DNA of 64,000 bases from contig NC_014002.1 of the NCBI RefSeq assembly GCF_000025865.1, forward strand, positions 1,426,001 through 1,490,000. The letters run 5' to 3'. The stretch comes from Methanohalophilus mahii DSM 5219 (lineage in GTDB: Archaea > Halobacteriota > Methanosarcinia > Methanosarcinales > Methanosarcinaceae). The notes under the pieces are model-generated. The model ran no database searches. It was not told the origin of the DNA and saw only the letters and a list, made by a program, of their open reading frames with translations. Each line of letters begins with the position of its first letter. Positions within the stretch are counted from its first letter, which is position 1. Positions 12,115-57,830 of the stretch are shown here, in pieces. Made by a program: the position numbers and the translations under genes.

Positions 12115-12945
12115 TCAGATGTGCTTGTACCATACATTCATATTTTCAAGATTGCCAGAGATATTGGTATTTTGAACAAGTTTTCCGGTAAATTCATACC
12201 CCAGTCTTGCAAAAACCGTATTCATACCATAGGACGCGGCCCGGGCGATGGTATACAGTGTAAGGATACCTTTCTTGTTCATTTCTTTTTCCATTTTTGA
12301 GAGGAGATGAGTGGACAAACCCATTCCCCTGAATTGAGGGAGTGTAGCAAAGTCGGTCATTTCTGCATTCCGGTTTTCAAAATCGATCTCGGAAGAGGAA
12401 AGGGCAACTATGCCACCTTCATTTTCAACTGCGAAATATGCAACATTATCTTCCATGGTTTCTTTCAGGTATGTCGGATCCTGGATAGGAAAAGGATATG
12501 TAGGGAACACCTCGGCGTATATCCTGGCCATTGCGGGCAAATCCGCTTCCGTACACATCCGGATCAGAAAGCCTTCGGGTAATTCATGTTTCCTGATATC
12601 TCCTGCCTTATCCCTGGCTGTGGAGATGATCCGGTCGTCTTCAGCCTGTGTGTCCTCTTTTCTGCGCTCTGAGAAATACTTACACATGAACAGGGCTTCC
12701 ATCTTGCCAGAATAATAGCCCGGTACACCGGCCTCCTTTACATATCCCTTTGCTTCAAAAGTTGCTCTGGAATCTGCAGGGATTTTTGCAAATATCTTGC
12801 TGTAGCCGCGTTTTTCTGCCAACCTATCCATTTCAGGTATAAGATCAGGGAGGTCCCCGGTATCCAGTTTCATAAGGTAAATACGATCGTTGTATGTACC
12901 GTGCTGGATGAGGGAGTTGCCAAATTTTTCGATTATATCACTCAA
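12115..12945 (-). CDS. ablB: Beta-lysine N-epsilon-acetyltransferase
   Basis: A GNAT acetyltransferase of 276 residues. It acetylates beta-lysine on the epsilon amino group to give the compatible solute N-epsilon-acetyl-beta-lysine used by methanogens at high salt. The acetyl-CoA loop is visible as [20 protein letters not shown] (Q/RxxGxG/A type). The start is the TTG at 12943-12945, which overlaps the stop of ablA (TTGAGTGA) and has GGAGAGAAGG upstream; this gives the usual family length. Translational coupling with ablA ensures paired expression of the two pathway steps. Confidence 0.92.
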
Positions 12946-14251
12946 CGTCCCTTCTCTCCATTCTATCGGTATCCTCCGGTACAAGACTTACAGCTTCATC
13001 ATAATCTGCAAGCAGTTTTGCAATACCTGTAGATTTATATTCAGCTGCATCATCAAGTTTGAGCTGTAGTTTGCATTCCTCACATTTACGATCACAGTAT
13101 ATCGGCTCGTAGGAATCCGGTTCCTTGTATGAGGTGATGACTCCCTCATAGTTACGCAGGATTACCCTGTTGGTTGACCAGGATATAAGATAGGAAGGCA
13201 TAACTGGTATTTTGCCACCTCCGTGGGGGGCATCTATAACATAAGTGGGTACTGCAAAACCGCTTGTATGGCCTATCAGGTGTTCCATAATTTCAATACC
13301 CTTACCTACCGGTGTCCGGAAATGGGAGAGGCCTTCGGACAGGTCGCACTGGTAGAGATAATAAGGACGTACACGATTTTGCACAAGTTTATGTACAAGA
13401 CTTTTCATAATCCTGTGACAGTCATTCACTCCTGAAAGCAACACCGTCTGGTTCCCGAGAGGAATTCCTGCATCCGCAAGTTTGCGCAGGGCCTCTCTGG
13501 AAGATGCTGTTACCTCACGTGGATGGTTGAAATGGGTGTTGATCCAGAGAGGATGATGCTTTTTGAGTATTTCTACAAGATCATCAGTTACCCTGTAAGG
13601 AAGCACCACAGGCATCCTTGTACCGATACGAATTATCTCAACATGAGGAATTTCCCTCAATTTTGTCAGGATCCAGTCCAGATAAGCATCAGGAAGCATA
13701 AAAGGATCTCCACCTGAAAGCAGTACATCGCGTACATGGGGCGTATTTCTGATGTATTCCAGTCCTTCAGAGACTGCATCCCTGGTAGGAATGGAATCCA
13801 CATCTCCCACCTTTCTCTTACGTGTGCAATGCCTGCAGTACATCGAACAGGTGTTACTTATATGGAACAGTACCCTGTCCGGATACCTGTGTGTGATTCC
13901 CTCTACAGGACTGTCCTCATCCTCTGAAAGAGGATCTTCAAGATCATCTTCATCGATGTCCAGCTCCTTTGGTGAAGGGAAGGCTTGCAGGAATATGGGA
14001 TCATTCCTGAAATCATCGGTATCTATGAGGGACAGATAATAAGGAGTTACAGATAATGGGAATTTTTCCAGGGTTTGTTTGAGTTTATCCTTTTCCTCGG
14101 CTTTGAATTTGATGCCAAGTAAGGTTTCAAATGTATCAACATCACCGATGGAATGCTTGAGTTGCCATCTCCAGTCCTTCCAGTTGGCAATAACAGTATC
14201 AGAATCGATTTTTTTAGCTATTTCTTTTTGTGCTTGTGTATGCTGTGTCAT
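12938..14251 (-). CDS. ablA: Lysine 2,3-aminomutase
   Basis: A protein of 437 residues converting L-lysine to beta-lysine, the first step of N-epsilon-acetyl-beta-lysine synthesis. The radical SAM cluster motif [15 protein letters not shown] (CX3CX2C) lies near residue 133, and GGDPFMLPD is the SAM-binding GGE-like motif. The C-terminal [10 protein letters not shown] is the zinc or structural cysteine motif of this family. It overlaps ablB by eight bases. Its presence marks salt adaptation. An inverted repeat and TATA elements in the 235-base region upstream are candidate control sites. Confidence 0.96.
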
Positions 14252-14401
14252 AAAAGTACCACATTTTTAGTTTATATTGCTTATTGAATGAATTTGCCTG
14301 CAAAAGTTGCATAAGAACATACGCACAGCTAAAAAATAAAGCAGGCAAAATGAAATCAAATAGGTATATCACCTTTGTTGAACAAAATATCACAACTAAT
14401 A

Positions 14402-14456
14402 GAACCGTATGTTGTTTATTTAACGGTTCATATATAGTGGAAGAAGATATATATAC
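14402..14456 (-). promoter_or_regulatory. ablA: Candidate promoter and inverted repeat upstream of ablA
   Basis: GAACCGT at 14402-14408 faces ACGGTTC at 14423-14429 (7-base arms, 14-base spacer). Immediately upstream on the minus strand are TATA-like runs at 14429-14437 and 14443-14456. The repeat sits where transcription would begin, giving a leader of about 160 bases to ablA. A nearer TATA-like element at 14271-14280 would give a nearly leaderless message. Which is used is unknown. Confidence 0.4.
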
Positions 14457-14486
14457 TTTACTGACTGGTTCCGATCAATTATTTCA

Positions 14487-14660
14487 TCAGATATTCAAGT
14501 ACTCTGAAATCCTGAAATAAATGATAAGATAACCAAATACCAGCATCATAAGGGATATTAACCATGCCCAGCGCAAAATACGCGCAAGGTTATTGGGTTG
14601 GGTGATTTTTAAAAAAAGTCTGTCGGCCATCCCTGGCCGATCAGGTTCTGTGTTAGGCAT
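14487..14660 (-). CDS. ahaG: A1AO ATP synthase operon small membrane protein AhaG
   Basis: A 57-residue protein, MPNTEPDRPGMADRL at the start, with one membrane helix (about WAWLISLMMLVFGYLIIYF). Its ATG overlaps the TAA of ahaD (TAATG), so it is translationally coupled to the operon. Position, size and single helix match ahaG, the last gene of ahaHIKECFABDG in Methanosarcina mazei (established operon order). Its role in the enzyme is not settled. Confidence 0.8.
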   Translation of the reverse strand: MPNTEPDRPGMADRLFLKITQPNNLARILRWAWLISLMMLVFGYLIIYFRISEYLNI

Positions 14661-15277
14661 TATGCCTTAATCCTCTTTAAGCGGAAGGTATTTTCACGTT
14701 CCATCTCATCCAGCCGGAAACGGATGAAATCCATTGCTTCCTGCATTTCGGGAATTACTTTGAATTCAAGGGCATTTACACGTCTTTTTGTTTTCTCGAT
14801 GTCTTCAAGTAACCTTTTCATAGTGGTCTCGATCTCTGCTGCAAGAATAATCTTGTCAACAAGAATCTCATATGAATCGACAGCTTCATCGATATAGGAG
14901 CTTGTCCCGAGAATACCGTATCCCCTTTTGTTGATGGGTTTATGCACACTGGATGCTTCAATCTTAGGGACCACCACACCCATAATGTTGTGGCTTTCGA
15001 GACTTATTTCAGGTCCATCTTTGAGAGCAAGAGCAGTGGATTTTATTACCATTCTGCCCTCGACCGCCTCAGCAATCCCTATTTTTTCAGTGGCATTGTT
15101 ATAGGCGTCATCCAGTTCGTTCCTTACACCCTTGGCCTGGTTCAAAATCTCAAAGAATTCCAGGATAAGACCATCCCTTTTCATTTTCAGCAGTTTATGA
15201 CCGCTCTGGGACAGTTTTATCTTTTTCTTCAGTTCAATGAGTTCGGAACGAGTTGGTTTAACATCCTTTGTGCCCAT
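14660..15277 (-). CDS. ahaD: A1AO ATP synthase subunit D (central stalk)
   Basis: A protein of 205 residues. The opening TKDVKPTRSELIELKKKIKLSQ and a C-terminal coiled coil ending MERENTFRLKRIKA are the antiparallel helices of V/A-type subunit D, which form the rotor shaft with F and link A3B3 to the membrane ring. It follows ahaB by 17 bases and overlaps ahaG. Confidence 0.96.
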   Translation of the reverse strand: MGTKDVKPTRSELIELKKKIKLSQSGHKLLKMKRDGLILEFFEILNQAKGVRNELDDAYNNATEKIGIAEAVEGRMVIKSTALALKDGPEISLESHNIMGVVVPKIEASSVHKPINKRGYGILGTSSYIDEAVDSYEILVDKIILAAEIETTMKRLLEDIEKTKRRVNALEFKVIPEMQEAMDFIRFRLDEMERENTFRLKRIKA

Positions 15278-15294
15278 AGTGGATCACTCTTTGT

Positions 15295-16677
15295 TCATTC
15301 TGCATTTTGATGTGCAGGATGGTATTTATCGATATACTTGTTGTCTATCCTGGTGAGCTGTGCTTCCGGAAGTTCGGAAAGGATTTCCCATGCTATATTC
15401 AGGGTATCTTCGATATTCCTATCTTCATCTTTTGCCTGTCTTACAAAGCGATCTTCGAAAAGATCGGCAAATTCCAGGATTCTCTGGTCTCTTTCGGAAA
15501 GGGATTCCTTACCGACAATTGCAACCAATCCACGAAGGTCACGTCCTTCTGCATACCCGGCATACAACTGGTCAGATACTGCTTTGTGGTCTTCCCTTGT
15601 TTTTCCTTCTCCGATACCGGAGTTCATTAGGCGGGAAAGGGATGGGAGCACATTGATTGGTGGATAGATACCCTTCCTGTGAAGTTCACGGGATACTACA
15701 ATCTGGCCTTCGGTAATATAACCGGAAAGATCAGGGATTGGGTGGGTAATATCGTCACCTGGCATGGTCAGGATAGAGAACTGGGTCACAGATCCCTTGT
15801 TACCCTTGATGACACCGGCACGTTCATAGAGGGATGCAAGGTCAGTATACATATAACCGGGATATCCACGTCTACCGGGCACTTCTTCACGGGCTGCACC
15901 CATCTGACGGAGTGCTTCACAGTAGTTTGTGATATCAGTCAGGATTACAAGTACATGCATATCGTGTTCGTATGCAAGATACTCTGCTGCTGTCAGTGCC
16001 ATCCTCGGGGTAATGATACGCTCGACTGCAGGGTCATCTGCAAGATTAAGGAAAACTGTCGCTCTTTCAAGAGCACCTGTCTTCTCAAAGTCTTCCATGA
16101 ATGACTGGGCTTCCTCATTGGTAATACCCATTGCAGCAAATACCACAGCAAAATCTTCTTCAGAACCGGGTACTTTTGCCTGTCTTGCAATCTGAAGAGC
16201 AATCTCATTGTGTGGCAGACCTGATCCAGAGAAGATAGGAAGTTTCTGTCCTCTTACAAGAGTATTTGTACCGTCAATAGTGGATATTCCTGTCTGGATA
16301 AATTCATCAGGTGGTCTCCTGGAAAAAGGGTTCATTGAAGCTCCATTCACATCTACCCTTTTTTCGGGGATAATTCTTGGACCACCGTCAAGGGGTTCTC
16401 CAGAACCGGAAAGGATACGACCAAGAAGATCTTTTGCAACAGGAAGTTTGATGGTTTCTCCACTGAATACTACACCGGATTCATCATTAAGTCCCTGTGT
16501 ACCTTCGAAAACCTGGATGACAACCATGTCTGCAGAGGTATCAAGAACCTGACCTCTCTTGGTGGTCCCATCAGGAAGGTTTACCTGAACAAGTTCCCCA
16601 TATCCTACAGGCTCGGTTTTTTCAAGAAATATGAGTGGTCCTGCAATATCTACAATGGTTTTGTATTCTTTGGTCAT
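15295..16677 (-). CDS. ahaB: A1AO ATP synthase subunit B
   Basis: The non-catalytic nucleotide-binding subunit, 460 residues. The P-loop region is degenerate ([13 protein letters not shown]), as in all B subunits of V/A-ATPases, while the family signatures [13 protein letters not shown] and [21 protein letters not shown] are intact. It alternates with subunit A in the cytoplasmic A3B3 head. It starts 3 bases after the stop of ahaA. Confidence 0.98.
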
Positions 16678-16679
16678 TT

Positions 16680-18416
16680 TCAGTTGCCTCCAATCTGTGT
16701 GAACTCTTCATCCATCTTTGCCATGATTGCTTCAAGGGCTGCATCAAAGTCTTCTTCATATTTGACCTTGGCAAGTTCATCCTTGGACTTCATTTCCATG
16801 ATCTTGGTGATGGGGACACCATTTTCCATCTTCTCGGTTGCTTTTTCCCCAAACGTGGATACGGATTTCAGAAGTTTGTATTGCCTATCAAATGGGCAGA
16901 ATGTGTCCACAGGATGGAAAGCGTTCTGCTGCAGGAAGTATTCACGAAGCATCCTGGCAATTTCAAGAGTAAGCTGCTGGTCCTCAGGGAGTGCATCCGA
17001 ACCCACGAGTTGCACGATTTCCTGAAGTTCAGCTTCTTCCTGAAGAATATCCATTGCATTATCCCTTAGTTCATTCCAGTCACTTCCGACATTTTCTGTA
17101 AACCAGCCTGCAAGCCTGTCATTGTAAAGACTGTAACTGGTAAGCCAGTTAATTGCAGGGAAGTGTCTCTTCTGGGAGAGTTTTGCATCCAGTGCCCAGA
17201 ATACCTTTACGATACGCAGGGTATTCTGTGTAACTGGTTCGGAGAAGTCACCACCAGGAGGTGAAACTGCACCTATGACAGTAATGGAACCATCAAGGCC
17301 TGCAAGGGAATGAACTGCACCTGCACGTTCATAGAATTCAGAAAGCCTGGCGGACAGATATGCCGGATATCCTTCCTCACCAGGCATCTCTTCAAGCCTG
17401 GAGGAAATTTCCCTCATTGCTTCTGCCCATCTGGAGGTTGAATCTGCCATGAGGGAGACATCATATCCCATGTCACGGTAATACTCCGCGATGGTAATTC
17501 CTGTATAAACAGATGCTTCACGGGCAGCCACAGGCATATTGGATGTATTTGCGATAAGAACTGTCCGTTCCATCAGTGGCCTTCCGGTCTTTGGGTCTTC
17601 CAGTTCCGGGAATTCATTCAGTACATCGGCCATTTCGTTTCCACGTTCCCCACATCCGATGTAAACCACAATATCAGTGTCACTCCACTTTGCAAGTTGC
17701 TGCTGGGTAACAGTTTTTCCTGATCCGAAAGGACCGGGGATCGCTGCTGTACCACCTTTTGCCACAGGGAACATCCCATCAAGGATCCTCTGTCCTGTTA
17801 CAAGGGGTCTTGTTGGAGAGAGTTTCTTGCCCACCGGCCTGGGACCTCTTACAGGCCATTTCTGCATCAGAGATAGTTCAGAGCCGTCAGAAAGTACACA
17901 AACCGTTTCATCCACTACAAATTTACCACTTTTGATATCTTCTACAGTTCCTGACTTTCTTGGGGGGACCATTATCTTGTGTTCGAGGTTGGGTGTTTCC
18001 TGTACAACACCGATTATATCTCCACCTTTAACACTGTCTCCTTTGGATACTGTAGGGGTAAATTCCCACTTCTTCTCCCTGGTAAGACCGTTTGCTGTTA
18101 CTCCTCTTTCAATGAAATCTCCCATCTTTTGCTGGAGAACTTCCAGAGGTCTCTGTATACCATCGTAAATACTTTCCAGGAGGCCTGGACCCAGTTCTAC
18201 TGAAAGAGGCATTCCCGTATTTTCTACAGGCTCTCCCGGTTTTATGCCGGATGTGTCTTCGTATACCTGAACTGTAGCTTTTTCACCCTCGATACGGATT
18301 ACTTCACCCATCAGTCCTTCATGACCTACTTTTACCACATCATACATCTTCGGCTTGATACCGGTGACTGTGACAACAGGTCCTGCCACTCGATAAATTT
18401 CACCATTCATTTCCAC
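16680..18416 (-). CDS. ahaA: A1AO ATP synthase catalytic subunit A
   Basis: The catalytic subunit, 578 residues. The A-type P-loop GPFGSGKTV lies near residue 234 and the Walker B/arginine region [18 protein letters not shown] follows. The bulge (non-homologous) region of about 90 residues between the N-terminal barrel and the P-loop is present ([20 protein letters not shown]). It makes ATP from the ion gradient built by methanogenesis. Its start overlaps the end of ahaF by 10 bases. Confidence 0.98.
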
Positions 18417-45953: not shown

Positions 45954-46631
45954 TTAAATTTTTCGAAAGGTTACCCTGAAAAGCTTTCTTGGAAGCTCTC
46001 CTTCTTCAAATTCCTCCATATCAACGATATCATACCCTTGTGAAATGCGCTCCACCTTTTCCATGCTCAGGAAATGAACAATGAATCCACCCTGTATCTG
46101 CCACATGTCCTCTCCTCTGTGAACTCCTGTTCGATATTGAGGATCGTCTGTGTGTCGTGTAGTGAATATGTTCAGACCGCCTGGTTTCAGGACCCTCCTG
46201 ATCTCTTTTGAAATGAATGCAAGTTCAGATGTTTTTAGGGGCATACAGTAGAGCATATGAGAATAACAGGCATCAAAATAACCATCATCAAAAGGCAGAG
46301 GTTCCCTAACATCATGCTGCAAGGGTGTTATCGATCCAGATAGTCCCATATCCCGGGACCTCTGATCTATACATTCAATTCCCTGTCTGGAGTAATCAAG
46401 AGAATATACCTCGAAACCATTATTTGCAAAGAACAAAGTGTCCCTTCCCTGACCTGCTCCAAGTTCAAGAATCTTTGTTCTACCCTCTTCCTTGAAGAGT
46501 TCTGCTGCTTTCATGGCAGGACCACTGCATCTTTCACCGAACATCGAATTGTTCTTTAAAAATACATTTTCCCAATGACACTGCTGCTTATTCAATATTT
46601 CTTCGTCCATACATGCTTCTTCATGATTCAT
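45954..46631 (-). CDS. Class I SAM-dependent methyltransferase
   Basis: A protein of 225 residues with Rossmann motif I ILELGAGQGRDTLFFANNG, motif II VYSLDYSRQGIE and post-motif region PLPFDDGYFDACYSHMLYC. EIRRVLKPGGLNIFTTRH is motif III. The substrate is unknown. ATG 46631 follows TTGGAGAAATGG; ATG 46610 is possible. It lies downstream of a UroD-type methyltransferase on the same strand. Confidence 0.85.
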   Translation of the reverse strand: MNHEEACMDEEILNKQQCHWENVFLKNNSMFGERCSGPAMKAAELFKEEGRTKILELGAGQGRDTLFFANNGFEVYSLDYSRQGIECIDQRSRDMGLSGSITPLQHDVREPLPFDDGYFDACYSHMLYCMPLKTSELAFISKEIRRVLKPGGLNIFTTRHTDDPQYRTGVHRGEDMWQIQGGFIVHFLSMEKVERISQGYDIVDMEEFEEGELPRKLFRVTFRKI

Positions 46632-46704: not shown

Positions 46705-47790
46705 TCACAAGCGAGAACTTATCGATCTCCAGAGGGTTTCCATTTCCTCGATCGGTGTGCTAAGAGGGATTTCACAGCCTGTAGAGAGTATAAAACCTTT
46801 TTCAGGTGCGGCGTCCATACAGCTTTTTACCTCGTGCTCAATATCATCTAACGAATCCCTGCAGAAGGCATTGGGATTGATGTTACCCATAAGGCAGATA
46901 CCATGCTTTTCAAGTTCCTTAAAGCAGTATCTTGGGCTGCATCCGGCCTTTTTATGGATCTTTGTACATTCAACACCATATTTCTTGCCCAGGGCTTCAA
47001 CATCACCTAAAGCGAAGTTAAGGGCATCTGGTTTTAGAGATGCTTCCATCTCATGGAATGCATGTTCAGCACAGTTATGGGATATCACATAAATGCCATT
47101 ATCTTGGATGTGGTCGTAGAGCTGTTTTGTATAAGGGAGCATGAATTCCTCAGCCATATCAGGACTGAAAAGATCTGCCGTGTTCTCCCCGTTCTCAACA
47201 AAGATACCGTCAACCCCTTCTTCAATAAGCCGGTCAGCATAAAGGATACAACTTTGTGTGAGTCTTTCAAGTAACTCATGAACATTCTCTTTTTCAGTGA
47301 GCATTTCTATGCAAAGACTGCTGGCCTCAAGTACCTGGGAAGCAAGCATCAAAGGGGAGAGCATGGCACCTTTGATGAAGACCTCGTCCTTGAGCTCCTT
47401 TTTTAGTATCCCGATAGAATTTGCAACAGTCTCTATCCTGTGGGACCTTTCAATGTCCAGGGGATCAATCCGATCATATTCATTGGCAGAACTTAGTTGA
47501 TAACCGGCTATCGTGGGATACCGATCGTCCTTGATGTTCAGCCGGGTGCCAAGTGCTTCTGCCTCAACTAGCAGACATCCCCAAGGAGACATAACATTGT
47601 CATGATGATACATCTGCCTTGCAAGTATCTGTGCCCTGGCGATCCCTTCTGCAGAATAGTAGACATCGCTCATGCAGGCATCCATGCGCCCCAGGACGCC
47701 GTTGCCTGCCCCAAACCAGAGATACCCATAAGGCATCCTATCCACATCCTTCATCTCAAGAGCATTAACAAACCGCTCCTTGGATGTCAT
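46705..47790 (-). CDS. UroD-family corrinoid:thiol methyltransferase, stand-alone
   Basis: A protein of 361 residues (frame possible from TTG 47835). ERFVNALEMKDVDRMPYG is the UroD-like start. Zinc ligands expected for the MtaA/MtbA superfamily are present: ISHNCAEHAF (His238, Cys240) and STGCEIPLSTP near the end. It is closer to the C-terminal half of the fused protein at 53047 (IIHNCADAV, STGCETPPGGP) than to MtaA. Such enzymes move methyl groups between a corrinoid protein and a thiol or another methyl acceptor; the substrate is unknown. The gene overlaps or directly follows the cysteine-rich small gene. Confidence 0.82.
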   Translation of the reverse strand: MTSKERFVNALEMKDVDRMPYGYLWFGAGNGVLGRMDACMSDVYYSAEGIARAQILARQMYHHDNVMSPWGCLLVEAEALGTRLNIKDDRYPTIAGYQLSSANEYDRIDPLDIERSHRIETVANSIGILKKELKDEVFIKGAMLSPLMLASQVLEASSLCIEMLTEKENVHELLERLTQSCILYADRLIEEGVDGIFVENGENTADLFSPDMAEEFMLPYTKQLYDHIQDNGIYVISHNCAEHAFHEMEASLKPDALNFALGDVEALGKKYGVECTKIHKKAGCSPRYCFKELEKHGICLMGNINPNAFCRDSLDDIEHEVKSCMDAAPEKGFILSTGCEIPLSTPIEEMETLWRSISSRL

Positions 47791-47827
47791 TTCCTCTGAA
47801 AATATATCGCCCCCTCGGATCCAAAAA

Positions 47828-48142
47828 TCATTCAAATTCTATACGAACATCCCCTGTCTTCTGGACCAAGGATTCCGACATCATACCTGCTTCCAGACAG
47901 CATACATGGAGGACAGCACAGGGAACAAGGCATGTAACACTGCATTTTGCTTCCTGGGCCTTTTGCATGACACAGTTGTCCTTTATATCGAAAAGGTCCA
48001 TCATAGGAACTTCTAGATGGGACATCTTCTTGATCTTTTCACAGGGTGTATCGATATCGACGATGATCTTGTCACCATCCAATTTCCCATTTATTTTATG
48101 TGTAAAATTACATACATTCGAATACACAGTTAATTCTGTCAT
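47828..48142 (-). CDS. Cysteine-rich small protein beside methyltransferases
   Basis: A protein of 104 residues that I do not recognise with certainty. It has ten cysteines, seven of them within a 26-residue span that includes AKCSVTCLVPCAVLHVCCLE, which could hold a metal or iron-sulfur cluster. A beta-rich N-terminal part (TELTVYSNVCNFTHKINGKL) precedes it. AGGAGG lies upstream of the ATG. Placed between a MtaA paralogue and a UroD methyltransferase, it may serve as redox or metal partner of these enzymes (inference). Confidence 0.72.
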   Translation of the reverse strand: MTELTVYSNVCNFTHKINGKLDGDKIIVDIDTPCEKIKKMSHLEVPMMDLFDIKDNCVMQKAQEAKCSVTCLVPCAVLHVCCLEAGMMSESLVQKTGDVRIEFE

Positions 48143-48252: not shown

Positions 48253-49296
48253 TTACATTTTTGTAGAATTGAGTTTTTTGGCATAGTACTCGTCTCTTGC
48301 TCGAACAAGTGCCTTTACGTTCTCAAAAGGAGTTTTGGGATTTATTTCACTTCTTGGAGAAAGCACATCGATTCCATCTGCCAGATATTTTTTCGCCTCC
48401 TTTTTCACCTGATTATAACTTCCATTCTACATTGTCGTAGAAGTTGAGATATTTCCAATAAGACAGGACTTGTTTCCAACCATTTTTTTAATCGCCTGGA
48501 AATCTTTGACTTTTTCTTCAATACTTATGCCTTGAAATCCGCATTCTGCCAAAGAGTCTAACATTGGGTTTGCATTTCCACACATATGTACAATTTTTAT
48601 ACCTGTTGTGTTTTCACAAAATCTATGATATTGTGGTTTTACGAAGAATTCAAACATGTCTGAATTTAGTAAATCAGAACAAACATTACCTTCTGAAACA
48701 CAAATTACATCAGCTCCATGTTTGATTAGCTCATTCGCATACTCAATACATGCGGTTGTGGCAATATTCAAACATTGTGTAGCATAATCAGGGTTTAGTG
48801 TGGACCATTTAATGTAGCTGTCCACACCCGTAAGATGAGAAAAAAGGGTTAATGGTCCTTCAATTCCTGCTATTATAGGCACATTTTCACCCACCTTTTC
48901 CTTCAATAAACCTGTAGCTTTTAAAACAGCAGGAATTCTCGCTTTTTCAACAAGATTCTTTGGAGCCTCTATATTATCGGTGTCTTCTGAAAAAGGATGA
49001 GATATTACATGGGGCTGAATGAATTTTGAACCGAGGTTAACTTTACAGCCCATTGCTTCAGCAAGAACTGTTGAGCAATATGGATATCTCACAGCTTCTA
49101 ATCTTGTGAGGTCGTAAGCTGCAAAGGCTAATTCTGCCATCTTCTCAGGATCACTATGTGCTTCTGGCCATGAAGCACCTGTTGCATCCATTAGTTCAAT
49201 AATACCTGTTTGTGTTATGGAAATCACCGGAACTCTATCCACAGGTTTGCCTTTTAAGGTATTCAACAACCTTTCTTTAAATCCTAAACCACTCAT
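48253..49296 (-). CDS. MtaA-like methylcobamide:CoM methyltransferase paralogue with in-frame TAG
   Basis: From ATG 49296 the frame reaches TAG at 48427-48429 (codon 290) and continues in frame to TAA at 48253, 347 codons, the usual MtaA length. The N-terminal half is strikingly MtaA-like (GKPVDRVPVISITQTGIIEL, SWPEAHSDPEKMA). Zinc ligands His237 and Cys239 lie in VHMCGN. After the TAG the text reads NGSYNQVKKEAKKYLADGID, then LSPRSEINPKTP, where MtaA has APGCGIAP: the third zinc ligand Cys316 is Ser316 (AGT). In MtaA the codon-290 position is hydrophobic. So the gene either encodes pyrrolysine and a changed metal site, or is decaying. Confidence 0.78.
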
Positions 49297-49412: not shown

Positions 49413-51023
49413 TCATTTCTTCAACAATATTTTATCGATTCTCAGCACACTGGTTGCGGTTTCAGTAGCAGAGATGACCGCTAATTTTTTGATGCTAGCT
49501 GAATCATAGACTAAAGGATTATTTTCTGTGACAGATCTGGAAGTATCAATTCTTGGATTCAATCCTTTTTTATAAAAATTTGACATTTTTACCATTGAAT
49601 CTATAACATTCATTCCTTCATTACTTGCCAGTATTCTGGGAATTTCTTCAAGTGCATTGGCATACTCGATAACCGCAAGCTGCTCCTTTCCTTTTATTGT
49701 GGTTGCATAGTTCTTCAGCATCTGCGATAATACAAATTCGATTCCGCCTCCTCCGGTAACTAACTTTTTATTCTTGAGGATAAATGCTGCAGTGTTCAGT
49801 GCGTCATCTGCAGCTTCTTCTACCTTTTCAAGAGCATATTTGAAAGGTTCCCATATCAAGATCGTCGAAATCATTTGATTTTCGACATTTATAAAAGCAA
49901 AATGTTCACCACATTTCTTTGTAACTTCAACGTCATTTGCTTTTCCAAGATGATCTGGCTCCAGATTGTCCTTTATGGACATAATTTGGGCACCTGTTGC
50001 CTTAGAAATATTTTCCAGGTCCTTATTTTTAAGTTTCTTGAACATTAGTATGTTTTGTTCCACAAGGCGTGATTCTATCTGGGAGTCTACATCACCTTCA
50101 CAAAACACAACATTAGCATTACAATTTATTATTTTATCAGCAAACCCGTCAAGTATTCTTTTATTCTCTTCATTGAACATATGAGCGGTTTCAATGCTAT
50201 CCATACTGATGTTACGTTTTGAATTTATAAATTCACTTTTGACTTTCAAATCATAATTTAGAATGAGAATATTTGGATGGGATACTGATTCTGGCATATC
50301 AAATCTTGCGGGTGTTTCATCAAGAATGACACCATTAAGATGCAATATATCAGGCCCGCCAACTTTCTTCATTATTTTTACATTTTCATCGAGATCCAGA
50401 TAACCATCAGGAGATATTGTTGCCAAATGCTCGATCACATTAACAACCATTGTTGAAAGCTTCTTTGCTTGATCAAGTTCTATACCTTTGGCAAATGAAG
50501 CACTGAGGATTGCAGCGTAGGTCTCATCATATGATTTAGCAGTTATACTGTTGAATTCGATAAGTTCATATGCCTTATTAAGAGCAATTTTATAACCCTT
50601 TATGATGGTGGTAGGGTGCACACCCATTTTTATAAGTTTAACTGCATTTACAATAAGGCTAGATGCCAGTATAACTGCGGTTTTTGTACCATCACCACAT
50701 GATCTATCCATTGATTTTGAAAGATCATTCAAAGAAGTAACTATAGGATGTAATACATCCATCTCTTTTATTATGGTTTTTCCATCGTTAGTTAAATACA
50801 CGTCACCAACATGATTTGTAATTAATTTATTTAGTCCCCAGGGGCCAAATGAAGTACTCAACAATTCTTTTATCTCAACAGATGCTTTTTCAAGGTGGTC
50901 GATAAGTTCTTTGTTCTCTACATCATTTTTCAGACCGATTTTTCTGTAAACGTTCTGCATAAGCTGATACATGTCATCTGCATTGTTCTGTTGTTGTCCT
51001 ATATTATTTACCGCTGAGTTCAT
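49413..51023 (-). CDS. Divergent group II chaperonin (thermosome-like)
   Basis: A protein of 536 residues. The group II frame is clear: TSFGPWGLNKLI, LTNDGKTIIKEMDVLHPI, CGDGTKTAVILASSL, VEEAADDALNTAAFIL, VTGGGGIEF and a C-terminal ATSVLRIDKILLKK. ATPase aspartates are present (Asp80 in NDG, Asp111 in GDGT). It is divergent: the usual GDGTTT is GDGTKT, the segment before the end (normally NAGLDPID..GVD) is reworked, and the GGM-rich tail is missing. It begins 5 bases after the hydantoinase-family gene. As I recall, M. acetivorans has an accessory chaperonin (MA4386, Hsp60-4) near its mtsF gene, so the link may be conserved. A folding or assembly role for the neighbouring enzymes is inferred. 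Confidence 0.9.
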   Translation of the reverse strand: MNSAVNNIGQQQNNADDMYQLMQNVYRKIGLKNDVENKELIDHLEKASVEIKELLSTSFGPWGLNKLITNHVGDVYLTNDGKTIIKEMDVLHPIVTSLNDLSKSMDRSCGDGTKTAVILASSLIVNAVKLIKMGVHPTTIIKGYKIALNKAYELIEFNSITAKSYDETYAAILSASFAKGIELDQAKKLSTMVVNVIEHLATISPDGYLDLDENVKIMKKVGGPDILHLNGVILDETPARFDMPESVSHPNILILNYDLKVKSEFINSKRNISMDSIETAHMFNEENKRILDGFADKIINCNANVVFCEGDVDSQIESRLVEQNILMFKKLKNKDLENISKATGAQIMSIKDNLEPDHLGKANDVEVTKKCGEHFAFINVENQMISTILIWEPFKYALEKVEEAADDALNTAAFILKNKKLVTGGGGIEFVLSQMLKNYATTIKGKEQLAVIEYANALEEIPRILASNEGMNVIDSMVKMSNFYKKGLNPRIDTSRSVTENNPLVYDSASIKKLAVISATETATSVLRIDKILLKK

Positions 51024-51028
51024 CTAAA

Positions 51029-52957
51029 TTATCTCCTTGGACTTCCAATTCCTGTTGCCACGATTTTAGTTTCAAGCCTTGCACCATATCCGTTTTTCAT
51101 GTCATTTCTGGCTATATCTAAATTTATTTTAGACATGTCCAGACCATACCCTGCCATATATCCTTCAATAAGTTTTTTACTTATACTATAAGCATAATTT
51201 ACAGAGTCCTCATACTCATCAAAAATGTTTCTTCCGTTTTCAGAAAAAACAACATACTGGTTAGTCCCAGTCCTGTCTATCCTTACAATGGATTCAGTTC
51301 TGTAGATAACATCTCCAAGGAGAGCACCAACCGCATTTCCAACTTCATGATACTCAGGAACTATTATGTCAGCATTGAGTATTTTGCAAATATCTTCCTG
51401 ATATGCTTTTACAGGTCCTCCAACAAGAACTATGGGTTGATTTACTTTGAAATTCAAAGAAGATGGGGATTCAATCATCTTTTCTATGTCTGATTTTTTG
51501 ATATCCTCTACTAAATAAGACACTATATTTACGGACATATTCTTTACTACTTGTGCTTTTATATGTGAGCAAAAACTATCTTTATCCATACCCACGTATT
51601 CACCTAGTAGCTGAGCTCCAATATCTGATGCCTCTGCATTATATCCGGTATAATCCCTCAAAACGTGAAGGGCATCTGTAGGAGTAAAACCAATTTGCTG
51701 AACATATTTTTTCTTGACAAGAGATTCAAGGTGACCGGAAAACATCAAAATGTGTTCATCTAATTTATTCGATATCTCATACAGGGATAGCGGTTTAGAA
51801 TCTAACACATCGAAGATTCGTTTCTCATTAGAGTTCAATTTAAAGTTATCTGATTCATATTTATTCAAATCACTTTTTATAAAGAAGGTTGTAGGCTGTA
51901 TTATATTATCCATAAGGCGTACGTTAGGTTTGTCAACGTTGCCAAGTTTTTCTATCAATTCAGGATGATTATATGCTGCAAGACACAGGGGTATGACCCT
52001 ATTCGATCCTATTGTTGTACGTGTCTGAACCCATACATGACTATCACCGCCAAGAGCAGACGTGTCCATCTTTATGGCTTTTACCATCGTGCTCCATCCC
52101 CCAACTTTAGCACCACTTTCACTTATCTCGGGAATTCCATTGGATATCATTGACACATCAGTGCTTGTGCCACCAACATCCATAGTCAGGCAGGTCTCAA
52201 GATTTGAAAGATGAGACGCACCAACAAGGCTGGCTGCAGGCCCTGAAAATATTGACTCAACAGGTTTTTTCAGTGCATCTTCTATTCTTACAAGGGAACC
52301 ATCACATTTCATCATCATTAGATCTGCATCAATTCCCTTTCTTTCCATTACCGAAAGAATAGATCTTATAAATTGATCAGTTACCGGGATTAATTGTGCA
52401 TTTAATAATGCTGTGACAGCTCTTTCATAAGCTCCAAGATTCATTGAAAGTTCATGTCCACATACAACTGGTTTGTCGGTCAATTTTCCAATAATATCTT
52501 TTACTGTCATCTCATGTTCAGGGTTCCTTACTCCAAAATAAGATGATACTGCAAAAGAGGAGACTTTATCTTTATTTTGCATTACAAAATTTTCAATCAA
52601 TTCAGGGTCATCGAGATTTTCTGCAACATTGCCATCAGCATCATGACCACCTTTTATGGATAGGATTTGATCGGTTGAAAGGGGTCCATTAATTGAATGG
52701 CCGATAAGGATAAGTGCAGCAGGATGCCCATTTTTTTCAAGCGTGGTATTGGTTGCAAGAGTGGTTGAAACGGATACAAATTCTATACTTTCCAGGTAAC
52801 TATCATTGAGTCCTTCAAGAGAATTCTCTATTCCCTGTATTAGATTGGAATGAGTAGTTAACGATTTATAAGCGTCCACTACATTTCCGGACGAGATGTC
52901 CATTATAATAGAATCAGTATATGTGCCTCCTGTATCAATTCCAAGTCCAAGGTACAT
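51029..52957 (-). CDS. Hydantoinase/oxoprolinase-family ATPase
   Basis: A protein of 642 residues in the ASKHA (actin-like ATPase) fold. LGIDTGGTYTDSIIMD is the phosphate-1 loop, VSTTLATNTTLEKNG the family motif, and CLTMDVGGTSTDVSMIS the second phosphate loop. Roughly residues 370-440 contain an inserted winged-helix-like segment (RIFDVLDSKPLSLYEISNKL). AGGAGGTTATAAG precedes the ATG. True hydantoinases work with a B subunit that is absent here. Beside a corrinoid protein, a role as ATP-driven activator or maintenance factor is possible, since corrinoid reactivases also use an ASKHA fold; this is inference. Confidence 0.88.
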   Translation of the reverse strand: MYLGLGIDTGGTYTDSIIMDISSGNVVDAYKSLTTHSNLIQGIENSLEGLNDSYLESIEFVSVSTTLATNTTLEKNGHPAALILIGHSINGPLSTDQILSIKGGHDADGNVAENLDDPELIENFVMQNKDKVSSFAVSSYFGVRNPEHEMTVKDIIGKLTDKPVVCGHELSMNLGAYERAVTALLNAQLIPVTDQFIRSILSVMERKGIDADLMMMKCDGSLVRIEDALKKPVESIFSGPAASLVGASHLSNLETCLTMDVGGTSTDVSMISNGIPEISESGAKVGGWSTMVKAIKMDTSALGGDSHVWVQTRTTIGSNRVIPLCLAAYNHPELIEKLGNVDKPNVRLMDNIIQPTTFFIKSDLNKYESDNFKLNSNEKRIFDVLDSKPLSLYEISNKLDEHILMFSGHLESLVKKKYVQQIGFTPTDALHVLRDYTGYNAEASDIGAQLLGEYVGMDKDSFCSHIKAQVVKNMSVNIVSYLVEDIKKSDIEKMIESPSSLNFKVNQPIVLVGGPVKAYQEDICKILNADIIVPEYHEVGNAVGALLGDVIYRTESIVRIDRTGTNQYVVFSENGRNIFDEYEDSVNYAYSISKKLIEGYMAGYGLDMSKINLDIARNDMKNGYGARLETKIVATGIGSPRR

Positions 52958-53023
52958 CTTATAACCTCCTGTGTTATAATTTAATTTGAAAGTATATTTT
53001 CATAATTTGCACGAATCAACCGT

Positions 53024-53056
53024 CTCAAAAAAAATAGGGTTTAATATCACCCTATT
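53024..53056 (-). terminator. Hairpin plus T-run at end of the fused methyltransferase gene
   Basis: AATAGGGT pairs perfectly with ACCCTATT (8 bases, 8-base loop, 53033-53056), and on the minus strand the stem is followed by TTTTTTTT. The stop codon lies in the loop. It lies between the fused methyltransferase gene and the hydantoinase-family gene, so it would lower expression of the two downstream genes relative to the enzyme. Confidence 0.7.
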
Positions 53057-54951
53057 ATGTCTTTTTGAAACTGTGGGCCAAGTTCCTTGACCTTGTCCAC
53101 CATTGCCTTGATAGGTGTCATTGGGCCTCCTGGTGGCGTCTCACATCCAGTAGACATGACATACTTAGACTGCATACCATTTTCCTTCAGGCTTTCATGA
53201 ACTCCCTTCAGTAGCACTTCTGTATCGTTTTCAATTTTCTGTATGCCTTCTGGGGAGTTGTCCATCATATCAATAGGATTTATTTCTCCCATCATACAGC
53301 ACATGTCACCATACTTTGGAATAAGGTCTGCATAGTTTTGTGAGCCTTTTTCCCTTTCACTTTCATAGTATGCATAGCTGAACAGAGCTGTTCCGAATTT
53401 CTTGATCTGAGTATCGAAATGAACAGCATCTGCACAATTGTGGATGATGTATGGTTGATCATATTTTTTGAAAACTGGAATGTGTTGATCATATACAAAC
53501 TTCCCATCAAACTTCCAATAGTCTTCTTCATCCATAATTATATTATTTGACCACAGGTTGTCAACACAAAGAGCATCACAGGCATCTTCTTCAAAGAAGG
53601 CCTCTGAAACCTGGCAGACGTAGTCGGTACATTTCTGAAGTGCTTCAAGAACAACATCCGGGTTGGTTTTCATGTCCATAAGCACACGATCTGCACCCAT
53701 AAGTTGTGTCAAAGTCAGGAGAGGACCTTCATGGAACCCAACAAATGGTGTACCAAGTTCCTTGTTTAACTTATCTTTGGCAAGTTTTGAAGCCTCAATC
53801 AATTCATAGGCACGTGTGCCTTCTTTGACTTCTGGGGTCTCAATATCTTCATAGTCCTCAAGGTGTCCTTCTGAGGAAGGTGTATCTTCTTCAGGATATT
53901 TGATAGTACATCCAAAGTCAGCTGAAGTAGCTGAAAGATCAATCAAACCTACAAACATGTCAAGGTCCATGTATTTACAACCAAGGAAAGCGCTTTCTGC
54001 AAACTTATTGGGATCTATGGCATATTCCTTGTAAGTCGCGTCTGCAAATTTTCTCAGAGCACCACATGCAAGTGGATATACTGGAAGACGGTCAACTTTC
54101 TTGTCAGCCATAGCCGCAAGAGTCCTGTCAGCATGACTCATTTCTTCCTTAGACTTGACACCAACACTTTCGAATTCTTCCATGATCTGCTTTGCAGTTT
54201 CACGCCCGATGTCTTTCTTTGATTTCACCTGTTTCTTTGCCAGAATTTCCCGATATTTCACCTTAGCAAGGTTGATTTTCTCGTCACTCCATCTTTCCTT
54301 TGAAGGTGAAAGTTTACTTACGGCATCTATTGCCCAGTTTGAGGCATGCAAAGCATCAGGTGCTGTTTTATCTGCACCGATATTCTCGGCAAAATCTTCA
54401 GATATGGGTGCTCCTCCTACCATTACGATAAGGGAATCCCTGAGTCCTTCTTCCTGAAGCATTTCGATGACTTTTTCCATTCCGGACATTGTAGTTGTCA
54501 TCAGTGCACTCATAGAGATGACATCGGCCTGGTTTTCTCTTGCTGTTTCAATGAATTTGTCCAGAGGAACGTCATTTCCAAGATCTATAGTATCAATTCC
54601 TCCTGCTGACATCATTGTTTTGACAAGGTTTTTACCGATGTCATGCACATCACCTTCTACAGTACCGATTACCATGGTTGCGGGTTTGGATGATTCTTCT
54701 GTTTCAATGTGGGGTGTTAGCACATCCATTCCAGCATACATTGCCTGTGAAGCGATCAACAGATGTGGAACGAAAGCTGTTCCTTTCTCATAGTTATCGC
54801 TAACAATTACCATTCCTTTGGCCAATCCATCAATAATAGCTTTATGTGGATCCAATCCTTCCTTTAACGCCTTTTCGGACAATTCTGCTGTTAGGTCTTT
54901 GTTTCCAGAAACCACAGCTTCCGCTAATTCTTTTAATATGTCTTGCGCCAT
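53047..54951 (-). CDS. Fused corrinoid protein / UroD-type methyltransferase (Mts-like)
   Basis: A protein of 634 residues in two parts. Residues 1-215 are a corrinoid protein: helical cap, then EGDVHDIGKNLV (His103 is the lower cobalt ligand) and VGGAPIS. A linker of about 55 residues, rich in K and E, leads to a UroD-type methyltransferase (275-634) with zinc ligands in IIHNCADAVH (His504, Cys506) and MSTGCETPPGGP (Cys603). This is the architecture of the MtsD/MtsF/MtsH methylsulfide:coenzyme M methyltransferases of Methanosarcina acetivorans. Upstream are a Msr-type regulator and a MsmS-like sensor, which supports methylsulfide use. Other methylated thiols or unknown substrates are possible. 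Confidence 0.88.
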   Translation of the reverse strand: MAQDILKELAEAVVSGNKDLTAELSEKALKEGLDPHKAIIDGLAKGMVIVSDNYEKGTAFVPHLLIASQAMYAGMDVLTPHIETEESSKPATMVIGTVEGDVHDIGKNLVKTMMSAGGIDTIDLGNDVPLDKFIETARENQADVISMSALMTTTMSGMEKVIEMLQEEGLRDSLIVMVGGAPISEDFAENIGADKTAPDALHASNWAIDAVSKLSPSKERWSDEKINLAKVKYREILAKKQVKSKKDIGRETAKQIMEEFESVGVKSKEEMSHADRTLAAMADKKVDRLPVYPLACGALRKFADATYKEYAIDPNKFAESAFLGCKYMDLDMFVGLIDLSATSADFGCTIKYPEEDTPSSEGHLEDYEDIETPEVKEGTRAYELIEASKLAKDKLNKELGTPFVGFHEGPLLTLTQLMGADRVLMDMKTNPDVVLEALQKCTDYVCQVSEAFFEEDACDALCVDNLWSNNIIMDEEDYWKFDGKFVYDQHIPVFKKYDQPYIIHNCADAVHFDTQIKKFGTALFSYAYYESEREKGSQNYADLIPKYGDMCCMMGEINPIDMMDNSPEGIQKIENDTEVLLKGVHESLKENGMQSKYVMSTGCETPPGGPMTPIKAMVDKVKELGPQFQKDIIG

Positions 54952-55375: not shown

Positions 55376-56176
55376 TTATATGTCTTTGTCTGTGATTGGA
55401 GTTGAATTATTAAGATAATATCTAAATAAATCCTCCCCCCATTTCAAAGCACTATTATCAAAACTCATGATTACATGGTTGTGATAAATTCCTGTATTAT
55501 AAAAGAGTGAGATTGCTGTGAATTTATCCGTTACAGTACCTGATGCAATTTCAATCTTGTCTCCAAAAACAAAAAGATTTCCACACTCCATATTCACAAA
55601 TTCTCTTGTTTCTTCTTGATAGTCATTTTGAAGTCTTTCAAATACTGGTTTTGTTATTATTACTGAAACGTCAACGCCTTTTTTCGCAAGTTCAATATAG
55701 ACTTTTGGGTATGCTGGACTGAAATATGAAGAAACTTCATGTACGTAAGTCGATTGATTAAGATATTCTACCATTTTTTCTGGTAACTCATACATCCTAT
55801 TAAGGCTAGGTTCGAGCAATTCACAGTTTCCCATTTCTTCTATTCTTTCTAAAAGACAAGAAGGTATTGCATTGAGGTTGTGGTTTTCCCAATAATTTTT
55901 ATTATCCGTATATACGGATAATACATCCAGTAGTGGTTGCATCTTTTTTACAATTACTCTGCCCATGCCTGATAATTTATATACATCATCGTCATAAACG
56001 ATTAACCCATGACTTAAAAGTATCTTAATTTGGGTCATTATTGCACTTGAATTCACATCAAGTATATCTTTTATCTCATCAATGTCCCTGGGTTTTTTTA
56101 CCAGCAAAAGAAGGAGATCTTTTCTTTTTTCTGATAGGAAGAGGGTTCCTAATAACTCAGATTTCATACTCTTCAC
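55376..56176 (-). CDS. Msr-type methyltransferase regulator (winged helix + DUF1724-like)
   Basis: A protein of 266 residues. The N-terminal winged helix is SEKRKDLLLLLVKKPRDIDE followed by NSSAIMTQIKILLSHGLIVY. The remaining 180 residues match the layout of methanogen Msr proteins, which control corrinoid methyltransferase genes such as mtaCB and mts. Start is GTG 56176, or ATG 56167. It overlaps the preceding sensor gene by about 20 bases, so sensor and regulator are made together, as in the msmS-msrG arrangement of M. acetivorans. The natural target is the fused methyltransferase gene just downstream. Confidence 0.88.
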   Translation of the reverse strand: MKSMKSELLGTLFLSEKRKDLLLLLVKKPRDIDEIKDILDVNSSAIMTQIKILLSHGLIVYDDDVYKLSGMGRVIVKKMQPLLDVLSVYTDNKNYWENHNLNAIPSCLLERIEEMGNCELLEPSLNRMYELPEKMVEYLNQSTYVHEVSSYFSPAYPKVYIELAKKGVDVSVIITKPVFERLQNDYQEETREFVNMECGNLFVFGDKIEIASGTVTDKFTAISLFYNTGIYHNHVIMSFDNSALKWGEDLFRYYLNNSTPITDKDI

Positions 56177-57830
56177 CCAATTGTTTTTTTGAGGAGAAAT
56201 CTATTTTTGGAATCCAAATGTGGACTTCTGTCCCCACATCTATTTTGCTCTCAATCTTTATGCTGCCTTTATGAGCATCAGCTATCTGTTTACATATATA
56301 GAGGCCGGATTCTATACCTTCCGAATTGTTTTTTGTTTGGGAATCAATCTCATAAAAACGCTGGAACATATGGGGAATTATATTTTCTGGGATACCGGCC
56401 CCATTATCTTTCAATATAACATGAATATAATTCATTTCTTCATCAACAATTATTGTCACTTTTCCTCTATAAGGAGTAAACCGAATGGCACTATCCATCA
56501 AAACTGTAAACATATCAGTCAGCTTTTCTTCATCTCCATTGATTAAAGGAAGAGATTTTGGTATTGTTTTTTCCAATACTATTTCTTTTTCTTCTATCAT
56601 GAAAATGGTGTCTACAAGGGAATGTTCCAGTGGCACAGAAATATCAATTGGCTTAAAATTGTATTCTATCTTGCCTGCTTCTTCCATACTCGTATAAATG
56701 AAAGAATTTACTATACGCCTTAATCTTTGAGAATGATGTATTACATTTTCAATGGCTTTTTTTTCAAGGTCATTGATAATCTCAAGAGTTTCATCATCGA
56801 TCATCTTTCCTTGTTCATTTGCAGGTTTAGTCCCCTTATTGTCTGATAGGATTTCGGCTTTCATTCTATCAAAAGATTTAAGTTCCATTTCTGCCATTGA
56901 AAGCTCAGTTGAACTTTTCTGAAGAGCATCTTCCATTTGCTTACGTTGGATTAGCCTCCACATTTCCTGTATGAGTAGAATCAATTGTCTCAAATCTGCT
57001 TCATCATAATCTTCTTCTTTATTACCAACCCCCGCTACAGCCACAATCCTGTTCCCATCAAATATTGGAACATTCATGTGTCTTGTCAACTTCACATGTC
57101 CTCGAGGATACCCTTTTTTAAGAGGATTTGCCTCCTGATAATTGTTGGTTATTATTGGTTTTCTCTGCCTTACAGCTTCTCCCCAGAGACCGGTGGTCTC
57201 GATAGGATATATGAATTTTCTATCTTTTACATTACATTCTTTCATCGCATGATTTGACCACGAATACATGATAAGGGAACCCTCATCTGGACTCATAAAA
57301 GCAAGATAACCCAATTTGCTTTTAGTTAGTTTGACTGCCTCTTCATGAGCAAAATCTGTAATTTCCTGTAATGATGAACCCGTCATTTGATTGAGTTTCA
57401 AAAGGGCCTCAAGCCGAGATTCGTCAAGATACAAATTTTCTTCTGCCTTTTTGCGTTCTGTAATATCTATTATGATTCCCTGGTAATGCGTAATCTTATT
57501 GTTATTATCACGCCGGATAAATGTCCTGTCATCTACCCACCGGACATCACCAGATTTTGTTAGTACTCTATACTCCTAGGTATATTCTGTATTTCCTTCT
57601 TCTGAATTCCTCGAAACCTCGGAGCGTACATAGTTTAAATCCTGTGGATGTACAATATCAGCATATTTTATCGATCCCGACTCAAAATCTTCTACAGTGT
57701 AACCTAACTTTACAACATTATCTGATACAAATTCCACAGGCCAATCCTGTTCAGTTTTGCAGAGAAATACTATGGCAGGACTGTTGTTGATGACTTTTTC
57801 TAATTCTGCCTTATCCTCGAATTGTGCCAT
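56157..57830 (-). CDS. MsmS-like PAS-GAF sensor with in-frame TAG and degenerate kinase domain
   Basis: From ATG 57830 the frame meets TAG at 57576-57578 (codon 85) and continues without a break to TGA at 56157, 557 codons. The TAG lies inside a PAS domain: NTEYT before it and EYRVLTKSGDVRWVDDRTF after it are contiguous PAS text. GAF domain about 133-300 has Cys199 and His245, again 46 apart as in the heme site of MsmS. The H-box histidine is absent (ILSDNKGTKPANEQ replaces the SNVSHELKTPL of the other kinase). The ATPase domain lacks the N-box Asn (LMDSAIRFTP) and the second glycine box reads EGIESGLYICK. It may be a pseudokinase sensor that works through the overlapping regulator gene. Confidence 0.78.

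Follow-up and report, generated by a model that had tools for sequence, protein, structure and literature searches.

What does a chaperonin gene do in the same cluster as a corrinoid methyltransferase? The question is raised by a locus of Methanohalophilus mahii, whose genome is one contig of 2,012,424 bp. The stretch of DNA analysed here, called the window, comprises positions 1426001-1490000 of this contig (64,000 nucleotides (nt)). The first-pass annotation, made from the letters of the window, described an Mts-like methyltransferase, a HyuA-family ATPase lacking its B partner and, 5 bases on, a chaperonin, and proposed that these form an enzyme with its own maturation kit. Coordinates, Pfam domains and HyuB-free neighbours all agree with this description of the genes. 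On the minus strand the order is methyltransferase, ATPase, chaperonin, with 89 nt between the first two and 5 nt from the ATPase stop to the chaperonin start. The open reading frames (ORFs) lie exactly as follows, in positions of the window:

53047..54951, minus strand: fused corrinoid/methyltransferase of the MtsD type, 634 amino acids (aa); evidence from Pfam, ligand motifs in homologues and a ratio of nonsynonymous to synonymous substitution (dN/dS) of 0.085.
51029..52957, minus strand: HyuA-like ASKHA ATPase lacking a HyuB partner, 642 aa; Pfam, alignment, predicted fold, dN/dS 0.12.
49413..51023, minus strand: divergent group II chaperonin of a methyltransferase-linked subfamily, 536 aa; Pfam, tree, residues, co-occurrence, dN/dS 0.107.

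Our answer is that the chaperonin probably serves the methyltransferase itself. This enzyme is a true fusion, as annotated: a single ORF contains B12-binding_2 (PF02607, residues 6-78), B12-binding (PF02310, 93-196) and URO-D (PF01208, 274-623), giving an N-terminal B12-binding part with GDVHDIG at 100-106 and a C-terminal URO-D TIM barrel. The corrinoid motif DxHxxG (D101-H103-G106) and the Zn ligands H504, C506 and C603 are present, and both DxHxxG and HxC...C are invariant in 13 homologues, including those of probable Archaeoglobaceae. A scan of genome contigs with the enzyme alignment returned mainly bacterial, corrinoid-only matches; it also yielded the unfused Methanomassiliicoccus locus and the neighbours of ATPase relatives described below. 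Genome G133, which we take to be M. acetivorans C2A, has three fused enzymes, at 1.019, 5.412 and 5.613 Mb. Assigned by position, they are consistent with MtsD (MA0859), MtsF (MA4384) and MtsH (MA4558), respectively (PMC7374477). Over its whole length the M. mahii enzyme is 73% identical to MtsD, 55% to MtsF and 68% to MtsH. With 73% to the probable MtsD against 55% to MtsF it is of the MtsD type, and the label “MtsF-like” was dropped. Its putative activity, judged from the sequence, is methyl transfer from dimethylsulfide or methanethiol to coenzyme M (CoM). One MtsD-type gene in another genome (G120 C16 12281-14170) has an internal TAG, which could reflect pyrrolysine, a pseudogene or a sequencing error.

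The chaperonin contains a complete Cpn60_TCP1 domain (PF00118, residues 51-535), scoring 398 bits against a cut-off of 34.3. Its scores are below the curated NCBIfam thermosome cut-offs (357.9 against 671.1 for TIGR02339, 351.5 against 450 for NF041082 and 345.5 against 400 for NF041083), and thus the annotated label of a divergent group II chaperonin is correct. M. mahii has three thermosome genes, this one linked chaperonin gene and one GroEL-like gene. The catalytic aspartates D80, D111 and D407, which by motif we take to be D52, D87 and D398 of GroEL, are present and are kept in all 38 linked copies from Methanosarcinaceae, as is the nucleotide-sensor lysine. The ATP loop, however, reads GDGTK instead of GDGTT (K114 in M. 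mahii, GroEL position 90); the lysine is found in 40 of 40 linked chaperonins and in none of 17 thermosomes. The linked chaperonins also miss the C-terminal tail. A maximum-likelihood tree of these 40 and 17 sequences placed the linked chaperonins of both families in which they occur (see below) in one clade apart from the thermosomes (support 100/100, stem 1.54), a grouping limited by long branches and few outgroups. Some copies are disrupted: one has an internal TAG (G127 C6 23638-25212; again pyrrolysine, a pseudogene or a sequencing error), and two are truncated (G103 C1 645622-646581 and G123 C27 43312-44409) in genomes that each have a second, intact copy.

The distribution of the two genes was surveyed in 112 Methanosarcinaceae genomes, counting chaperonins with at least 45% identity as members of the subfamily. 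The chaperonin was found in 47 genomes and the fused enzyme in 53. All 47 chaperonin-bearing genomes have the enzyme, and none of the 59 genomes without the enzyme has the chaperonin (Fisher p 2.5e-25, not corrected for phylogeny). Both states, with and without, occur among near-complete genomes of at least five genera (g1, g4, g5, g6, g8); within the genus of M. mahii, six other genomes have neither enzyme nor chaperonin. Of 60 chaperonin copies, 58 lie within ~3 kb of an enzyme gene, always on the same strand, and the other two sit on short or edge-broken contigs (G166 C40, G138 C71). The gene order varies, with the chaperonin first in G128 C1 and G178 and the ATPase present or absent, so the unit is not a single frozen block. 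Six genomes have the enzyme and no full chaperonin. In one of them (G057) split chaperonin ends were found at contig edges; in G075, G115, G139, G165 and G179 a contig edge lies close by on the expected side of an enzyme or ATPase gene, so that absence of the chaperonin there is possible but unproven. In M. acetivorans, where the annotation had mentioned a chaperonin near mtsF, subfamily members are present at two loci, at 1.014 Mb on the mtsD side and at 5.415 Mb on the mtsF side, with none at mtsH. In a phylum-wide sample of 393 genomes, Methanosarcinaceae was the only family passing E 1e-90.

A second family (f9), presumably Archaeoglobaceae, with genomes that we take to be those of A. fulgidus, F. 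placidus, A. veneficus and A. profundus, repeats the pattern. Two of its 55 genomes have the fused enzyme, and the same two and no others have the chaperonin. The enzymes are 52 and 54% identical to that of M. mahii; the chaperonin genes follow 8–12 bp behind, and their products are 33–35% identical to the M. mahii chaperonin. A RamA-type gene adjoins the pair on the opposite strand. In both chaperonins (L087:2022-3617, L088:8045-9586) D52 is replaced by K, D398 by N or S and the sensor lysine by G, which suggests that ATP hydrolysis is altered or lost in these two. Taken together, the enzyme–chaperonin pair is conserved across Methanosarcinaceae and recurs in f9; it is clearly not confined to M. 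mahii, the outcome by which the annotation would have counted its idea refuted. We conclude that the association is real, specific and old.

Genomes with more than one unit give further information. In three genomes, the chaperonins of the MtsD and MtsF loci of the same genome are ~97% identical in protein and 95–96% in DNA, and their partner enzymes 55%; linked chaperonins of different species are 81–84% identical. Such near-identical copies beside enzymes of 55% identity indicate that gene conversion or recent copying keeps the chaperonins alike, in line with one chaperonin serving both MtsD and MtsF. Near-identical copies within a genome were seen at loci L071, L072, L074, L076 and L077, and two of the three genomes have a further, more distant copy (89% in G079, 55% in G128). 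We estimated selection by comparing M. mahii with G037, the sole other congeneric genome with the unit. The dN/dS values of about 0.1 in all three genes (listed above) mark them as maintained. The neighbouring MtaA-like gene has a TAG at codon 290, also in G037, after which the frame stays open for ~58 further codons. Its dN/dS is 0.375 before the TAG and 0.545 after it, and Zn ligands are lost. We therefore rejected pyrrolysine read-through in favour of a decaying gene; it is outside the conserved core of the unit.

The linkage, the co-occurrence, the separate clade, the purifying selection and the changed ATP site are best explained, in our view, by a chaperonin that folds or assembles this one fused enzyme, a function that we consider probable on these sequence comparisons. 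It would then be a group II chaperonin specific for one client, the fused Mts-type corrinoid/methyltransferase of the same gene cluster. Its task would be to fold or assemble a 70-kDa enzyme of two domains, a Rossmann-type B12 domain and a TIM barrel, for which the general thermosome is presumably ill suited. The need for it may have arisen through fusion of MtsB- and MtsA-like proteins, and the near-identical chaperonins of the MtsD and MtsF loci may be interchangeable. The Mts enzyme of M. barkeri is the two-subunit MtsAB (PMC10689795), and M. barkeri has three group II chaperonin genes and M. acetivorans five (PMC6420498). A Methanomassiliicoccus locus (L092:7989-9752, 12904-17023) has separate corrinoid and URO-D genes (stop, GGAGG, ATG) and, after them, two HyuA-like ATPases; there is no chaperonin within ~8 kb. 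These few cases are in line with a need for the chaperonin that is peculiar to the fused form. The separate genes may be an unfused relative of the Mts enzyme.

Several points weigh against dedicated folding. The genomes are related, so the co-occurrence counts are not independent, and the link to fusion is based on one unfused locus and the M. barkeri literature. Enzyme copies of the MtsH type have no adjacent chaperonin, although they could use one in trans, and G130 has MtsD and the ATPase with no chaperonin adjoining and one elsewhere in the genome. Finally, the residues lost in the f9 chaperonins are odd for an ATP-driven folding cycle. A different proposal seems doubtful to us: that the chaperonin has left general folding altogether and, with its lysine loop and, in the f9 forms, its lost catalytic residues, no longer cycles ATP as a folding cage but offers a single family of B12 enzymes a chamber for assembly or cofactor loading.

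For the maturation kit proposed in the annotation, the association of enzyme and chaperonin thus holds, but the part of the ATPase is weak. Of 35 MtsD-type loci, 31 have the ATPase gene next to the chaperonin gene (all those from genomes covered when the ATPase was searched for), whereas 19 MtsF-type loci all lack it there; it is absent at the f9 loci and has several paralogues elsewhere. The protein matches Hydant_A_N (103.4 bits) and Hydantoinase_A (106.5 bits), both above cut-offs, and retains the phosphate motifs GIDTGGTYTD and DVGGTSTD. No HyuB domain was found among nine genes scanned around it. Pfam gave no match in it to the RACo middle/C-terminal or Fe-S domains, which RamA-type neighbours do carry, and a RamA-type gene shares the cluster with the ATPase in one genome (G009). 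Owing to this architecture and co-clustering, the ATPase is unlikely to be a reductive activator that reactivates the corrinoid, as had been suggested, and we rejected it as a replacement of RamA. At L082:2924-4768 a RamA-type activator gene is clustered with an MtsD-type enzyme, the ATPase and the chaperonin.

It is quite possible, if short of probable, that the ATPase is a metabolic enzyme unrelated to the methyltransferase, acting as an ATP-dependent amidase or in a carboxylase-like activation of a small molecule. Its predicted structure (predicted local distance difference test (pLDDT) 78, built on 5 sequences) agreed best with the acetone carboxylase beta subunit 5svc (VIA-align Z 32.8, root-mean-square deviation 4.1, 518 residues). 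The best matches of the model were subunits of acetone carboxylase, acetophenone carboxylase, N-methylhydantoinase and caprolactamase, as a metabolic role would predict, and dehydratase activators and a diol dehydratase reactivase ranked lower. A winged-helix insert seen in the model (residues 376-423) is not claimed, the surrounding region being HyuA fold. M. mahii has five more full-length paralogues (45–51% identity) and one distant relative, and their neighbours are an mtaCB-like cluster, a pterin-binding/DUF5981 cluster, a CbiQ gene, a helicase (L208) and a small methyltransferase; unrelated neighbours such as the helicase also speak for metabolism. The locus, on the other hand, has no HyuB or carboxylase partner. 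Relatives lie near corrinoid proteins in M. acetivorans, Methanomassiliicoccus (two copies), Paradesulfitobacterium and a Lysobacterales metagenome-assembled genome, and acetogen glycine-betaine methyltransferase clusters are drawn with a hydantoinase (PMC9768040). Our tentative guess is that the ATPase gives additional, optional help to MtsD-type enzymes, loading cobamide into the corrinoid domain or releasing it, and is not the reductive activator.

For the chaperonin, three alternatives to dedicated folding were weighed. The first is that it serves as a scaffold or chamber that holds the enzyme open for cobamide loading, partnered by either the HyuA-like ATPase or a RamA-type protein. The lysine in the ATP loop of all 40 sequences and the catalytic residues lost in the f9 forms would suit such a role, as would the RamA-type gene that neighbours the pair in L087, L088 and L082 and the ATPase gene immediately preceding the chaperonin at MtsD-type loci. 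However, all catalytic aspartates are kept in Methanosarcinaceae, MtsF-type and f9 loci have no ATPase, and an mtaCB-like locus of the same genome (L210) does without such a chaperonin; we regard the scaffold as unlikely. Passive linkage, in which horizontal transfer moves the genes as a single catabolic unit and nothing ties the chaperonin specifically to the enzyme, is improbable. Patchy distribution within genera does resemble that of a mobile catabolic island, but not one chaperonin occurs without the enzyme in 112 + 55 genomes, the linkage holds across different gene orders and two paralogous enzyme types, and the chaperonin is maintained (dN/dS 0.107) while its MtaA-like neighbour decays (0.375). 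Very improbable, finally, is a chaperonin for general stress or co-expression, which would join thermosome rings as an extra subunit once methyl-sulfide genes are induced: the five thermosome-type subunits of M. acetivorans could mix (PMC6420498) and the genes from mtsF to mtaCB2 (MA4384-MA4394) are regulated together when HdrED is repressed (PMC11619418), but identity to thermosomes is ~30–35%, with clade-specific changes and no C-terminal tail, and the chaperonin is absent from every genome without the enzyme.

The remaining genes around the unit are listed below. Rfam and tRNA scans of the window gave no matches.

56157..57434, minus strand: GAF-domain histidine kinase, 425 aa, upstream neighbour in MtsD-type loci; Pfam, locus comparison.
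55376..56176, minus strand: Msr-like helix-turn-helix/FilR1-type regulator upstream of the unit; Pfam FilR1_middle, same position in most homologous loci.
48427..49296, minus strand: MtaA-like methylcobamide:CoM methyltransferase with in-frame TAG at codon 290; alignment, dN/dS 0.375/0.545.
47828..48142, minus strand: DUF6951 small Cys-containing protein; Pfam, accessory neighbour in some relatives (L080, L082, L222).
46705..47835, minus strand: second MtaA/URO-D-family protein, accessory neighbour; Pfam, locus comparison, dN/dS analysis.
45954-46631, downstream of the unit: S-adenosylmethionine methyltransferase; N-terminal part resembles the MduS selenoprotein family, split in two in G037.

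Most related loci encode a longer GAF kinase, of up to ~1000 aa, and the one here is possibly truncated; a separate, short PAS-like ORF lies upstream of it (57576-57830).

In the literature, the extra chaperonins of M. acetivorans have been treated as thermosome subunits 4 and 5 (PMC6420498). The longest cluster regulated on HdrED repression is MA4384-MA4394 (PMC11619418), which by position should include the chaperonin MA4386, and mtsD is induced ~100-fold under MCR limitation (PMC11267899). Our literature search found no published link of these chaperonins to Mts enzymes, though the main papers on Mts genetics could still mention one. Five thermosome-type genes are described as peculiar to M. 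acetivorans. Dedicated folding would explain why it has two extra chaperonins, which are linked to its mtsD and mtsF loci; the subfamily itself is widespread. Dimethylsulfide methyltransferases would be predicted to be hard to express without the linked chaperonin, and the gene of this chaperonin would serve to mark methyl-sulfide methanogenesis. Direct tests can be made in M. acetivorans, a genetically tractable species. Dedicated chaperonins for one metabolic enzyme have so far been few, bacterial and GroEL-like; an archaeal group II case tied to a single enzyme family would make it possible to ask, in a clean natural setting, why certain proteins require a folding machine to themselves.

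The closest known counterparts of the enzyme are MtsD, MtsF and MtsH of M. acetivorans, which have the same domain order, length and ligands; their loci likewise have an Msr-type regulator and a GAF kinase upstream. The ATPase shares its fold and phosphate motifs with HyuA and acetone carboxylase beta ATPases but is a solo subunit, with a large paralogue set in Methanosarcinaceae. RamA/RACE activators are also ASKHA ATPases near corrinoid methyltransferases, but the M. mahii protein is without their RACo and Fe-S domains, and true RamA-type genes co-occur with it. With thermosome subunits the chaperonin shares the full TCP-1/cpn60 domain, the helical protrusion region and, in Methanosarcinaceae, the catalytic aspartates. 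It differs from them by an identity of only ~30–35%, its own clade on a long stem, GDGTK for GDGTT, the absent C-terminal tail, scores below curated cut-offs and its occurrence only with the fused enzyme. The GroEL-like MmoG of soluble methane monooxygenase and a mycobacterial chaperonin (MimG) are needed for functional binuclear iron monooxygenases (PMC7994243). Like the M. mahii chaperonin they come from the locus of their enzyme, and they are reported as necessary for it (PMC7994243); they are, however, bacterial and group I, whereas the M. mahii chaperonin is archaeal and, by its Pfam and NCBIfam scores and the tree, group II. By locus and co-occurrence, the best reading of the linked chaperonin is thus as a putative archaeal counterpart of MmoG and MimG.

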